From contig NC_023035.1 in NCBI RefSeq assembly GCF_000507245.1, positions 1,465,501 to 1,529,500 on the forward strand: a stretch of DNA of 64,000 bases, in the 5' to 3' direction. The notes beneath the pieces were generated by a model, which saw only the letters and a program-made list of their open reading frames with translations, did no database searches and was not told the DNA's origin. The position numbers and the translations under genes were made by a program. How positions within the stretch are numbered: the first letter of the stretch is position 1; each line of letters opens with the position of its first letter. Positions 41,660 to 51,079 of this stretch are shown in pieces. Origin of the DNA: Salinispira pacifica. Its GTDB lineage: Bacteria; Spirochaetota; Spirochaetia; DSM-27196; Salinispiraceae.

Positions 41660-41731
41660 TTCCCGGTGGTGTAATTGGTAACACTACAGATTCTGGTTCT
41701 GTCGTTGGGGGTTCGAGTCCTCCCCGGGAAG
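41660..41731 (+). tRNA. tRNA-Gln (anticodon CUG)
   Basis: Cloverleaf is complete: acceptor TTCCCGG / CCGGGAA, D stem GTGT / ACAC, anticodon stem ACAGA / TCTGT with loop TTCTGGT (anticodon CTG), T stem GGGGG / CCTCC with loop TTCGAGT. Discriminator base is G. The 3' CCA is not encoded, so it must be added by tRNA nucleotidyltransferase. It stands alone with its own promoter and terminator. Confidence 0.96.
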
Positions 41732-46536: not shown

Positions 46537-48180
46537 TTAGCTGAGAAGCCTTCGAATTTCACTCTCATAGCCGGGCATGAGTGTTCCGGGACTCAAGTCC
46601 CGGATCCCTTCCCGAGGGCTCGGCCGGGGTGACAGAAGGCGCCGGACAATTTCCTCTATTACATGGTCAGGCTGATGCTCTTTGGGGATGGCCGTGCTGT
46701 CCTCTTTTTCCACAGGATATCTGCAGTCCCGGGGAAAATATTCGGGGTACGACAGGGCGTCGGGAACAACCGGCGTCAGTCCCGCATATGCGGCTTCCAG
46801 CATGCTCAATCCCTGAAACTCGTGCCGGGCGGTTGAGAGCACCAGATGCCTGCAGGATGTCTGGCCTTCCCCGCCATATTCACCGGCGGGTACGGCGGAC
46901 CTGCGGTTTTCCGCCCCCCACTCGGTCAGCTTCTCCACATACTCTTCCCGTGGCAGGGGCTCGCCCACCCGGATTCTGTGGGCAAATTCCAAACGAAGCT
47001 GTTCCAGTTCCCCGGGCACGCTGCGGAACTTTCTCCCCAGCAGGCTGATGCTCCAGCCCCCGTTCTTCTCATCTTCCCGGTCCGACTGTAAGCCGTGGGG
47101 CCCCTGTTCCTGCTGTTTCGCATGTTTCTGCCGGGGCCCCAGAGTCGCCAGGCGGCGCTCAAGCCCACGGCAAATCTCCAGCAGCAGCCCGGGATTTTTA
47201 TCGTACTCCCAGCGGTGGGGCCACACAATATGGATATGGGGATGCTCGTGAACCTGCCGCTCTTCCCTGCCTGCCCGGGCGGATCGGGTTTTCTGTCGGG
47301 AGATGGAGAGCTGTGGGGAGCTGAAAAGAGAAACCTCCACTGCCACAGGAATTACTGCTGATTTTTCGGCAATATCCCGGCAGATTTCCGGATCAGTTTT
47401 CTCGGGAAGGGCATCCAAAAAGCTGCTGATCCCTGCCAGGCAGCTGTCCCGGTTCCAGGCCGAATTAAATGCAATCCGGTCAGCGCTCAAAAGGGAGTAA
47501 AGCTGGCTTGCCTGGGCGTCCCGCTCCAATGCCCTGCTCTCTGCCTGGTGTCTCTGCCGGCCTTTGCCAGATTGCCGGCTGGTATCCGATTGCCGGCTGG
47601 TATCCGAAGGGCGGCTGGCGGGTGAAAGCTCGGTGCTTTGCCAGGGCCCGCTGCTTCGCAAAGGCCCTTTGTTTCGCATGGGCCTTTTGTTTTGCAAAGG
47701 ATAGGCGAACTGGTTTTCATGGACATACTGCAAAACCGGAATGTTCCTCAGCCGGGGCAGAACGGCCCGTATAGCGCTCACATCCACCGAACTGGTTGCA
47801 ATGATCATATCCGGGGGGCCTCCATCCCCGGGGGATACACCGTCCTCAAGGTGCATACTGTTCCTGGGAAAAATCTCCCTGAGCTTATTTCTCCAGCTGA
47901 GAGCCGATCCTTTGAGCCGAAAACTGAAGTAGCGGGGTGGAAGAGTCAGTGCGTACCATCTGAACTCCGGCAGACCCTCCATGAGGGAGCGTGCCCAGGA
48001 GGCCTGGCTGTCGCTGTGATACCCTGAGAGCAGAAGAATGCTGTGTGTGCCTTCCCCGGTTTCGTTGCCGCTGCCGTATCTGTTGTAGTCCGGGCCTGAG
48101 TCCTGGGGTGAGTCCGGGCCTGAGTCCGGGACGGTGCCGGGGCCGGAGGTCGAGAATTCTTCGTCCCGACCCATGCTCAT
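46537..48180 (-). CDS. QTMAN/GTDC1-like glycosyltransferase (DUF3524)
   Basis: A 547-residue GT-B glycosyltransferase related to human GTDC1/QTMAN, which mannosylates queuosine in tRNA-Asp. The N-terminal domain has LLLSGYHSDSQASWARSLMEGLPEFRWYALTLPPRYFSFRLKG (written in parts: LLLSGYHSDSQASW, LPPRYFSFRLKG); the C-terminal domain has HIVWPHRWEYDKNP, LGRKFRSVPGELEQL and STARHEFQGLSMLEAAYAG, blocks typical of that family. Low-complexity Arg/Ser/Pro-rich inserts lie at about 1-40 and 165-220, the latter with an 18-bp duplication. It overlaps the end of cimA by 4 nt, so it is translated behind it; no metabolic link is obvious. Confidence 0.8.
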   Translation of the reverse strand: MSMGRDEEFSTSGPGTVPDSGPDSPQDSGPDYNRYGSGNETGEGTHSILLLSGYHSDSQASWARSLMEGLPEFRWYALTLPPRYFSFRLKGSALSWRNKLREIFPRNSMHLEDGVSPGDGGPPDMIIATSSVDVSAIRAVLPRLRNIPVLQYVHENQFAYPLQNKRPMRNKGPLRSSGPWQSTELSPASRPSDTSRQSDTSRQSGKGRQRHQAESRALERDAQASQLYSLLSADRIAFNSAWNRDSCLAGISSFLDALPEKTDPEICRDIAEKSAVIPVAVEVSLFSSPQLSISRQKTRSARAGREERQVHEHPHIHIVWPHRWEYDKNPGLLLEICRGLERRLATLGPRQKHAKQQEQGPHGLQSDREDEKNGGWSISLLGRKFRSVPGELEQLRLEFAHRIRVGEPLPREEYVEKLTEWGAENRRSAVPAGEYGGEGQTSCRHLVLSTARHEFQGLSMLEAAYAGLTPVVPDALSYPEYFPRDCRYPVEKEDSTAIPKEHQPDHVIEEIVRRLLSPRPSPREGIRDLSPGTLMPGYESEIRRLLS

Positions 48181-49754
48181 TCGCCGGGTTCCCGGTTGAG
48201 GTTGTTCAGATAGTATTCAAAACTGTCCAGGAGGGCCTCCCAGCTGGCTTCCACAATATTTTCGTTGACTCCCACCGTTCCCCAGTCATGCTCGCCGTCG
48301 GAGCTGGTAATGAATACCCGCACCTTGGCCGCAGAAGCGCTTTCGGGGTTCAGAACCCGCACACGGTAATCGATGAGTTTGATTTTTTTCAGATCGGGAT
48401 AGTGGGGGTAGAGGGCGTTTCTCAATGCCCCATCCAGGGTTTCAACAGGGCCCACACCCACCGCGGCCCCCATGACTTCGGTACCCGAATCATCAAGAAA
48501 CATTCTTCCTACCGTATTGCTTTGAGCGGTTGCAGTTTTGTAGCTTTCAAGATGATAGTTCTTCAGGCTGACCAGGGGTGTGTAGATCCCCAGGGCTTTC
48601 CGCATAAGAAGGTCGAAACTGCCTTCCGCCGCCTCATATTCATATCCGAAATTCTCCCGGCTTTTCAGTTCGTCAATAAGAACCTGTACCACTTCATCGT
48701 TTTTCCCGAAATCGCCGTACTTCCGCATCTTTTCTATGATTGTGGACTTTCCTGCCAGTTCGCTGAGGAGAACCTGCCGGGAATTGCCCACCAGCTTTCC
48801 ATCCAGATGTTCCATCAGGTGGGGAGCCTTGAGAATTACATCCGCGTGCTGTCCCGCCTTGTGGGAGAATGCTGCAACACCCACAAATGCCTGGCGTTTA
48901 TCAGGAATGATATTGGCTTTTTCTGCGACAAAACGGCTCAGCCCGGTAAGATGGGGCATGTTCGGCTTGCAGTTGGCCTCATAGTCCATTTTAAGAGTGA
49001 GATTGGGCATGATTTCGCAGAGATTGGCGTTTCCGCAGCGTTCGCCCCAACCGTTTACCGTTCCCTGAATATGCATGGCCCCGGCGTTCACTGCCGCAAG
49101 ACTGTTGGCCACTGCGGTACCGCAGTCATTATGGAAATGTCCTCCCAGGCGTTGATAGCCTTCGGATTTCAGAGTGCTATAAATCTCAGATACTTCGTGG
49201 GGAAGGGTGCCTCCGTTGGTATCGCATAAAACCATCACATCAGCCCCCGCATTCATTCCTGCGGAGAGCACCTTTCTTGCGTACTCAGCGTTGCCCTTCC
49301 ATCCGTCGAAAAAATGCTCAAGGTCGAAAATCACAACCCGGCCCTGTTTTTTCAGGAAAGAAATTGAATCGTCGATCATCCGCAAATTTTCTTCCAGGTT
49401 GGTTCCGATGACCCGTGTCACGTGTTCGGTCCAGGTCTTTCCCACCACCACCACGGTGCTGGTTTCTGCGTCCAGCAGTGCTCTGATGTGTCCGTCGCTT
49501 TCAGCCGACCCGCCGGCCTTCCGGGTGGAGCCGAAGCTTGCCACCCGGGCATGCCGGAGATTCATGGACCGGATTTTTCGGAAAAATTCAGCTTCCTTGT
49601 CATTGCTCAGGGGAAATCCCCCTTCAATATAATCAATCCCAAGGTCATCAAGCTTGCTGGCAATTTCCAGTTTATCTTCGAGACTGTAGTTTATCTCCAG
49701 CCCCTGCATGCCGTCTCGAAGGGTGGTGTCGAATATTTCCACTTTCCGGTTCAT
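48177..49754 (-). CDS. cimA: Citramalate synthase
   Basis: Condenses pyruvate and acetyl-CoA to (R)-citramalate, a threonine-independent entry to isoleucine. The 525-residue protein has the DRE-TIM N-terminus VEIFDTTLRDGMQGLEINYS, GGFPLSNDKE, GGHFHNDCGTAVANSLAAV and GTVNGWGERCGNAN, all typical of the CimA group rather than isopropylmalate synthase, plus a C-terminal LeuA-type allosteric domain (about 400-525) that usually binds isoleucine. ATG 49754 has AGGAGG just upstream; the frame extends further to 49802 without support. An Ile-rich leader and attenuator lie upstream, which supports the Ile assignment. Confidence 0.92.
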   Translation of the reverse strand: MNRKVEIFDTTLRDGMQGLEINYSLEDKLEIASKLDDLGIDYIEGGFPLSNDKEAEFFRKIRSMNLRHARVASFGSTRKAGGSAESDGHIRALLDAETSTVVVVGKTWTEHVTRVIGTNLEENLRMIDDSISFLKKQGRVVIFDLEHFFDGWKGNAEYARKVLSAGMNAGADVMVLCDTNGGTLPHEVSEIYSTLKSEGYQRLGGHFHNDCGTAVANSLAAVNAGAMHIQGTVNGWGERCGNANLCEIMPNLTLKMDYEANCKPNMPHLTGLSRFVAEKANIIPDKRQAFVGVAAFSHKAGQHADVILKAPHLMEHLDGKLVGNSRQVLLSELAGKSTIIEKMRKYGDFGKNDEVVQVLIDELKSRENFGYEYEAAEGSFDLLMRKALGIYTPLVSLKNYHLESYKTATAQSNTVGRMFLDDSGTEVMGAAVGVGPVETLDGALRNALYPHYPDLKKIKLIDYRVRVLNPESASAAKVRVFITSSDGEHDWGTVGVNENIVEASWEALLDSFEYYLNNLNREPGE

Positions 49755-49821
49755 AAATCCTCCTGTAATCCTGCTGCCTGTCCTTCCGGAACCGCCATCC
49801 ACCGAAGTGAATCTACGGACA

Positions 49822-49876
49822 TAAAAAAAGCCGCCTTCCAGCAGGAAAGCGGCCTTCGATGCACCCTGATCCTGCT
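49822..49876 (-). promoter_or_regulatory. Transcription attenuator of cimA (terminator plus antiterminator)
   Basis: Read on the minus strand, GCCGCTTTCC (49853-49844), loop TGCT, GGAAGGCGGC (49839-49830) and seven U residues (49829-49823) form an intrinsic terminator between the leader peptide and cimA. AGCAGGA (49876-49870), overlapping the leader stop codon, is exactly complementary to TCCTGCT (49846-49840), which spans the 5' arm and loop of the terminator. Pairing of the two would stop the terminator forming. A ribosome finishing the leader covers AGCAGGA and lets termination occur; one stalled at Ile codons leaves it free. Confidence 0.85.
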
Positions 49877-49949
49877 ATTTTTCCCCGTTGCCGATAATCG
49901 CAATAATGAGGTTAATAATGGATATGGATGCAATAATATTCATTCTCAT
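49875..49949 (-). CDS. Isoleucine-rich leader peptide of cimA
   Basis: A 24-codon frame from ATG (49949-49947) to TAG (49877-49875). Nine codons are Ile, in the block IIASISIINLIIAII, with one Leu. It ends at the attenuator, 121 nt before cimA. Translation signals are weak: no ribosome site is well placed. A TATAAG (49960-49955) would put transcription start at about the ATG, so a leaderless message is possible, but the TTGACA upstream (49988-49983) is 22 bp from it, more than the usual 17. ATG 49943 is an alternative start. Its purpose is inferred to be sensing of charged tRNA-Ile. Confidence 0.82.
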   Translation of the reverse strand: MRMNIIASISIINLIIAIIGNGEK

Positions 49950-50002
49950 GTATTCTTATACACTCTTCCCTTTTATTGATTTTGTCAAGGGGATGTATCA
50001 TT

Positions 50003-51079
50003 ATGAGCCCCATGAAAGTGCCGAACACCATGTATGAATCCCTTCCCCGGCCCGAGGGAGGCTGGTATGACCTCAGCCCCCGGGGAAGTGCAGCTCCCCC
50101 CATGTTTCTCTCGTCAGCCTCGCTGGGAAGTGCCGGAACCTCGGGCGTCCGGGGACTGGCGCAGCGCTGCAGGCTCATTTCCACATTGAGGGAGGGGGCC
50201 GGGAAGGGCCCACGGAAAGCCCGGCCCCCGGAACAGGATGAGCAGAAGCCCGCGGCACAGGATGAGCAGAAGCCCGCGGCACAGAAGCCTGTGACACTGG
50301 AAGCGGGCCAGGGTTCGCTCCTCGTATCCGTGAAGCAGGTACACAGCATGGATGTCCTTATCATACGGGGCCTTCAGCGAAACGGCGGCCGACAGCGTGA
50401 CAGCGTGAGAATTTCGGTCATTTCTTCACAGTGGCGGGAGGCCTCTTTTTCCAGGGGCGGTGAGAAGGTCCTGGCGGAACCGGGGTGGGATGCATTTCTG
50501 GATGAAGCAGCTGATGGATTTCCTATGCTTCACGGCATTGAAGCCGACGGAATTCTTACCAACCTGGATCTGATCACACCGGGGGTGACGGTGGCTGACT
50601 GCATGCCGATTTTTCTGCATACAGGAGCCTGGAGGGGGCTCCTTCATTCGGGCTGGGCGGGAACGGGGATTTTGCGTGCTGCCCTGGAATATCTGTCCGA
50701 AGCGGGGCAGGAGGCTCCGGAAGTTGTTCTGGGCCCCTGCATTTCGGCGGACAGCTATGAGGTGGATCAGTCACGGGCGGATTTGTTTTCCCGGCGTCAT
50801 GGCGCGAACGCGGTGCGGGGCAGACACCTGGATTTGCCGGCAGCCAACCTGGGAATTCTGGAAGAGATTTCCCGCATGGAGCTGTTCCGTCAGGAATTCC
50901 GGATCCTGGTTCGGGACAGTTGCACAGTAAAGCATTCTGGTTTATTTTCTTACAGGCGGATGGGACCGGAGTCCTATGGCCTGATGCTTGCTCTATTTCC
51001 TCCGGACAGATCCCGTATCCCCGTCTGCAGCGGCAGCGAGCTCCGCGAATTGCAGCACGGCCGGATCCGGAAGGTCTGA
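50003..51079 (+). CDS. pgeF: Laccase-domain protein, purine nucleoside phosphorylase PgeF-like
   Basis: A DUF152/YfiH-family protein, 358 residues. The metal-site blocks are present: SVKQVHSMDVL, GIEADGILTNL...GVTVADCMPIFL, LLHSGWAGTGI, VVLGPCISADSYEV and CTVKHSGLFSYRR. Members act on purine nucleosides or on misplaced L-Ser in peptidoglycan precursors. The first about 100 residues are low-complexity and include a 24-bp duplication (50237-50284, DEQKPAAQ twice). ATG 50003 has AAGGGGA upstream at about 49986-49992; the frame is open from 49976. It is divergent from the cimA leader. Confidence 0.88.
   Translation: MSPMKVPNTMYESLPRPEGGWYDLSPRGSAAPPMFLSSASLGSAGTSGVRGLAQRCRLISTLREGAGKGPRKARPPEQDEQKPAAQDEQKPAAQKPVTLEAGQGSLLVSVKQVHSMDVLIIRGLQRNGGRQRDSVRISVISSQWREASFSRGGEKVLAEPGWDAFLDEAADGFPMLHGIEADGILTNLDLITPGVTVADCMPIFLHTGAWRGLLHSGWAGTGILRAALEYLSEAGQEAPEVVLGPCISADSYEVDQSRADLFSRRHGANAVRGRHLDLPAANLGILEEISRMELFRQEFRILVRDSCTVKHSGLFSYRRMGPESYGLMLALFPPDRSRIPVCSGSELRELQHGRIRKV

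Follow-up and report, generated by a model that had tools for sequence, protein, structure and literature searches.

The ilvGMEDA, ilvBN, leu, thr, his and trp operons of Escherichia coli and Salmonella are controlled by ribosome-mediated attenuators. In these systems a short open reading frame rich in codons for the regulated amino acid is followed by a terminator that lies before the first gene, and antiterminator and terminator are mutually exclusive structures. Shared operons carry leaders that contain codons for several amino acids. A survey from 2010 described leader-peptide systems as known only in Proteobacteria and Actinobacteria and added the his genes of Firmicutes (PMC2965389). The BCAA attenuators of Firmicutes are the subject of two further papers, as judged from the part of their text that is available (PMC5794164, PMC5864092). 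Among the Actinobacteria, the Corynebacterium ilvBNC uORF (ilvB-II motif) and the ilvB and leuA leaders combine a BCAA-rich uORF with a terminator (PMC10272879, PMC1262725). For the ilvBNC leader of C. glutamicum, formation in the absence of a ribosome binding site has been reported (Morbach 2000, as cited in the available part of PMC10272879). In Sinorhizobium meliloti, the trpL transcript has the ATG of its leader ORF at the very 5' end and is leaderless (PMC7298713). Closest in phylogeny is the ilvB motif of Leptospira, for which the accessible text of the sources gives seven representatives, confined to Leptospira, with a predicted uORF that is rich in BCAA and Thr and contains a Val run (PMC8632094, PMC10272879). 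According to the same portion of the 2023 paper, this motif is reinterpreted as a BCAA-rich uORF, which is a prediction (PMC10272879). Because of this predicted Val-rich uORF, the spirochaete phylum is not wholly new to attenuation. An earlier note on the DNA analysed here had stated that translation-coupled attenuators are best known from Proteobacteria and Actinobacteria; these two phyla stand, but the statement has to be widened to Firmicutes (PMC2965389, PMC5794164, PMC5864092) and to Leptospira ilvB (PMC10272879), where such systems are known or predicted. A report of cimA attenuation was not found in the open-access literature.

Here, we describe a leader in front of cimA in the spirochaete Salinispira pacifica that, judged by its sequence and by comparison with relatives, is very probably a classic ribosome-mediated transcription attenuator tuning cimA to charged tRNA-Ile. 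The host genome is complete (3.78 Mb), and the locus lies on the minus strand of the window, by which we mean the whole 64-kb stretch of DNA that was analysed. On this strand an Ile-rich frame, an intrinsic terminator and cimA follow one another. The regulated gene (48177..49754, minus strand) encodes a citramalate synthase of 525 aa, the enzyme with which isoleucine synthesis begins, and its assignment in the earlier note is borne out by the citramalate synthase equivalog TIGR00977, which the product matches with 611 bits (cut-off 450). The ATG of cimA at 49754 is located downstream of leader and terminator and is preceded by a Shine-Dalgarno sequence, AGGAGG, at 49759..49764 (minus strand). 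On its other side the leader is bordered by a divergent gene that starts near 49976-50006. The leader ORF itself (MRMNIIASISIINLIIAIIGNGEK, 49878..49949, minus strand) has no Shine-Dalgarno sequence. It comprises 24 codons, nine of which encode Ile (seven ATT, one ATC and one ATA), exactly as the earlier note had read it. The stop codon TAG (49875..49877, minus strand) is placed inside the 5' arm of the antiterminator. When both strands of the 64-kb window were searched for this anatomy without regard to composition, the cimA leader was the sole match. The only Rfam match of the window at the gathering threshold is a tRNA gene on the plus strand (41660-41731).

Fold and terminator prediction place an intrinsic terminator hairpin (segments 3:4) at 49826..49857 on the minus strand, with 14 bp and the loop UGCU. 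Its stem has a dG of -23.3 kcal/mol (z = -5.7 against dinucleotide shuffles), and a tract of seven U occupies 49823..49829, with the end of the attenuated transcript expected around 49823. The complete leader fold has a z of -4.5. Pairing analysis and a swap control identify UAGCAGGA (segment 2, 49870..49877, minus strand), at the leader stop codon, as the 5' antiterminator arm. The 3' arm, UCCUGCUG (segment 3, 49839..49846, minus strand), consists of the end of the terminator 5' arm together with the loop, as seen from fold and pairing. The two arms form 8 bp, the last of them a G-U pair. Both the strong terminator with its seven U and the complementarity of AGCAGGA and TCCTGCT had been pointed out before, and both are present, the latter as 7 bp within the 8-bp antiterminator. 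The MFE fold shows a further helix for the RNA without a ribosome, between segment 1 (UGCAUCC...AUCC, 49920..49932, minus strand), which is part of the leader ORF, and the segment-2 region at 49872-49860; this pairing does not appear to be general in relatives. For S. pacifica the calculated probability of the antiterminator is 0.97 with a ribosome stalled at the last Ile and 0.00 with a ribosome at the stop codon; when no ribosome is present, the local 1:2 pairing keeps it at 0.14.

This arrangement suggests the following course of events. Transcription would begin at the leader ATG or only a few bases away from it, and the leader would be read as a leaderless mRNA. When Ile-tRNA is sufficient, the ribosome would reach the stop codon in the 5' antiterminator arm and mask this arm, the terminator would form and the RNA would end near 49823. 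A shortage of Ile-tRNA would make the ribosome stall in the Ile run and leave the arm by the stop codon free to pair with the terminator 5' arm before the terminator 3' arm is synthesized, which would allow read-through into cimA. In this species the pairing of segments 1 and 2 would hide the antiterminator arm as long as no ribosome is on the leader. We infer that the leader is translated, that ribosomes stall on it, that transcription terminates there in vivo and that the start is leaderless. The parts and their order are visible in the DNA itself, and their conservation, the covariation of the arms and a codon content matched to the operon come from the comparison with relatives.

At E <= 0.001, all but one of the 46 genomes of the order (45 of 46) and 329 of 395 genomes drawn from the class contain a relative of cimA, the weakest matches being to leuA-type paralogues. 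The sequence upstream of cimA or its operon yielded 51 leaders, which include that of S. pacifica and represent 16 families; examples from relatives are MNHYDSAQNSIIILIIIESLM from the same family, MKKGWGGDNGIIIAICIDSEFRREA and MFEKTPATVVNRSIPVIPGFIIIIGLGTHVEG. Since circular selection was to be avoided, loci were also chosen by anatomy only and not by composition: TTGAC, a start codon 33-48 nt further on, an ORF of 12-50 codons and a strong terminator. This selection retained 51 loci, and 49 of these have at least 12% Ile. Across the loci chosen by anatomy, Ile accounts for 21.7% in frame, whereas reading the same DNA in its two other frames gives 2.7% and 4.4% (p about 1e-23). By this comparison of sequences, chance is excluded as the origin of the Ile-rich leader anatomy.

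The attenuator is absent in G002 (L004), a genome of the same family, and in G012 (L121), of the same order. In both, cimA itself starts a few tens of bases past TTGACA, as if it stood in the place of the leader and were translated leaderless. Two further loci (L043 and L048) likewise lack an attenuator and have a TTGACA box ahead of cimA. For 20 genomes, sequence further upstream was read over 7-12 kb, and in 11 of them this revealed no candidate with promoter, leader and terminator. Family f27 of the class, with genomes of about 1 Mb, yielded no match to cimA, and the title of one record, a cave MAG named Borreliella garinii (L044), looks wrong for this reason; the record contains a full cimA and an Ile-containing leader.

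The antiterminator helix of the 51 leaders spans 6-13 bp (median 9), and in 40 of them the 5' arm ends at the stop codon, overlaps it or comes within 3-4 nt of it. The leader stop codon is a fixed point of the design. The arms covary, as in the pairs CGCAGGAAG/CTTCCTGCG, CGTGGAAGGAT/GTCCTTCCACG and CCCGGCGG/CCGCCGGG. When 5' arms were combined with the 3' arms of other genera (26 genera), none of 20,000 permutations equalled the own pairing, and no draw did so when arms were swapped at the level of families. The 5' arm starts a median of 17 nt past the Ile cluster, outside the edge of a stalled ribosome. We modelled the ribosome with its edge 10 nt past the A-site codon. A modelled stall at the last Ile of the cluster gives an antiterminator probability of at least 0.5 in 50 of the 51 leaders, and a ribosome at the stop codon does so in none. 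About half of the leaders have an available antiterminator when no ribosome is present, and a conserved 1:2 protector hairpin is unsupported as a general part. For the closed RNA, equilibrium calculations favour the terminator in nearly all cases (median P about 0.96), and antitermination would thus need co-transcriptional timing, that is the order of synthesis, as in known attenuators. The earlier note had proposed a comparison among spirochaetes: there the Ile-rich frame is kept and the antiterminator arms covary, and codon changes, where they occur, match the operon. On the level of sequence, its attenuation reading is supported by this conserved frame, the covarying arms and codons that follow the operon.

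A TTGACA box at 49983..49988 (minus strand), followed by the leader start codon 39 nt later, is the probable -35 element. We base the promoter on the spacing of TTGAC in relatives, where it precedes the leader start by 35-39 nt in 43 of the 51 leaders. A Shine-Dalgarno-like motif occurs in only one of them. Many relatives also have a plausible -10 hexamer (for example GATTAT or GATGAT) 17-18 nt from TTGAC. In S. pacifica the -10 region is ambiguous or weak (TATAAG, 49960-49955, 22 nt from TTGACA), and a strict sigma-70 scan called no promoter at the cimA leader. A -35 box at the observed spacing would place the transcription start at or a few bases before the leader ATG. The leader mRNA is probably leaderless, a feature that this promoter-to-start distance points to and that was absent from the earlier note.

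The amino acid encoded in the leader changes with the genes behind it. Leaders of cimA alone contain on average 5.9 Ile and 1.9 Leu, those of leuA alone 1.1 Ile and 6.9 Leu (p 7e-9 and 1e-7). Leaders of leuA-cimA or ilv-first operons, which in examples begin with 2-isopropylmalate synthase, acetolactate synthase or dihydroxy-acid dehydratase, contain 5.8 Ile and 5.1 Leu on average (more Leu, p = 4e-9). Eleven genomes have both leaders: Ile is higher before cimA than before leuA in all of them, and Leu is higher before leuA in ten; in the remaining genome the frame was poorly chosen. Nine further ilv-first leaders, for example MKTFSVYRSIFHPLYAIINIIVVVVILPFRASPED, came to light when up to 12 kb of upstream sequence was read. 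Elsewhere in the class, other families have leaders rich in Ile, Leu and Val before ilvB or ilvD, at a distance of 4-6 kb on the upstream side of cimA (L228, L229, L232, L234, L235, L243, L244, L245 and L247). The separate leuA genes of the order have leaders that share this layout but are rich in Leu, such as MKRTLLSAAMILLGLLLALPGVSDREGLDWHPRR, and peptides of the LLGLLLALP type precede leuA across the order (L209-L225). S. pacifica has such a Leu version too, which was not part of the earlier note. Its leuA-type gene (G000:C1, match from 2568624) is preceded by the leader MNRITGTADIPTLLLLGLNSYCCSACVCIQNR and then a terminator, and this Leu-type attenuator (L201:1192-1346, plus strand) combines the run LLLLGL with a terminator of 9 bp and a TTGACA box that precedes the ATG by 38 nt. 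An attenuator was also searched for at ilvB, ilvD and hisG of this genome and was not found there, and control in S. pacifica therefore appears to sit on the branch-specific enzymes, cimA for Ile and leuA for Leu.

This codon pattern bears on the other explanations that can be given for the locus. The nascent peptide or translation itself might control cimA, by small-molecule arrest or by coupling and reinitiation on cimA, instead of the supply of Ile-tRNA. The hydrophobic peptides of relatives (18-44 residues) and the fixed stop codon would fit such a mode of action. However, beyond the Ile run the peptides of different families have no conserved sequence, and the identity of the codons tracks the operon, with Ile before cimA and Leu before leuA. 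Coupling is also difficult to reconcile with a leader stop about 120 nt from the cimA start, a terminator in between and a Shine-Dalgarno sequence of cimA's own; we consider control by peptide or translation very unlikely. The frame could also be the gene of a small membrane protein with its own terminator, since Ile-rich peptides resemble transmembrane segments, or the hairpin could be the terminator of the upstream gene, terminators being common between genes. Yet the neighbouring gene on the upstream side is divergent, covariation links the terminator to the antiterminator arm at the stop codon, and Leu takes the place of Ile before leuA, and we give these two possibilities hardly any probability.

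Amino acid genes of other phyla are under the control of T-boxes and riboswitches (PMC2965389, PMC10272879), and a tRNA- or metabolite-binding RNA of this sort, a T-box or a BCAA or ppGpp riboswitch, might act on the terminator here, with the Ile-rich frame being incidental. No such Rfam family matches in the window or in 13 related loci, and on this ground the identity as a T-box or riboswitch was rejected. Moreover, the space between leader ORF and terminator in relatives is only about 15-35 nt. The best weak match of the leader is itself an attenuator, the Rfam Thr_leader (21.9 bits against a cut-off of 55, E = 0.055). Control by a T-box or riboswitch has next to no probability in our judgement. 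The known Rfam amino-acid leader families (Leu, Thr, His and Trp) likewise gave no match at the gathering threshold in the window and the 13 related loci.

We had meant 74 cimA loci from outside the spirochaetes, ranked by similarity and not evenly sampled, as a negative control. They failed in this role because Planctomycetota have Ile-rich leaders of their own, in which such frames precede terminators with a different core (GCCCTGAGGYC...). A terminator lies close to cimA in 38 of these similarity-ranked loci; in 25 of the 38, three or more of the last 14 codons encode Ile, versus 2.8% in shuffled DNA, kinship being ignored. Their arms pair better with their own terminators than with swapped ones (2 of 20,000 permutations reach the own pairing, again with kinship ignored). 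In some of the loci (L060, L086 and L090) the antiterminator arm extends across the stop codon and forms 12-13 bp. Records with an Ile-rich leader and a terminator before cimA are L047, L057, L058, L060-L064, L072, L074, L076-L080, L083, L085-L087, L090-L091, L095, L097, L099 and L107; nearly all are Planctomycetota, and L072 is labelled bacterium only. Taken together, we consider it likely that the Spirochaetia have one widespread leaderless BCAA leader-peptide attenuation system whose control codons are rewritten when operons are rearranged (to Ile where cimA follows, to Leu where leuA follows and to mixtures before leuA-cimA or ilv operons), and that Planctomycetota have an equivalent attenuator before cimA that arose by common descent or by convergence. 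The Planctomycetota finding suggests that attenuators are under-annotated outside the model phyla.

The previous evidence for spirochaetes in the searchable literature is thin and consists of the prediction before Leptospira ilvB only; the leaders described here are strong comparative evidence that classic tRNA-charging attenuation acts on cimA and leuA throughout the class Spirochaetia. The near-fixed distance from promoter to start makes leaderless translation of the leader directly testable, and the codon swaps between cimA and leuA within the same genomes resemble a ready-made mutagenesis of amino-acid specificity.

Apart from a general 1:2 hairpin, which found no support, the cimA leader has the features of a ribosome-mediated attenuator that can be looked for in a sequence. 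As in the attenuators of E. coli and Salmonella, there are a codon-rich ORF, mutually exclusive antiterminator and terminator structures, a terminator before the first gene and multi-amino-acid leaders. Unlike there, it is cimA that would be controlled, the leader lacks a Shine-Dalgarno sequence, the antiterminator arm overlaps the stop codon and a 1:2 protector hairpin does not appear to be conserved. The leaders of Corynebacterium and other Actinobacteria share the BCAA-rich uORF with a terminator, but they differ in phylum, gene and sequence, and in Spirochaetia Ile-only and Leu-only leaders are separated by gene. The S. meliloti trpL has its attenuator leader at the 5' end of the mRNA, as is probably the case here, but with Trp codons and in Alphaproteobacteria. 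The Leptospira ilvB motif comes from the same phylum and also has a BCAA-rich uORF; in the available text of its sources it concerns ilvB only, neither cimA nor leuA, and comes with no covariation test of an antiterminator. The kind of switch that the cimA leader would represent is already known, and this new example of it has an unusual breadth and a clean natural swap of specificity between cimA and leuA.
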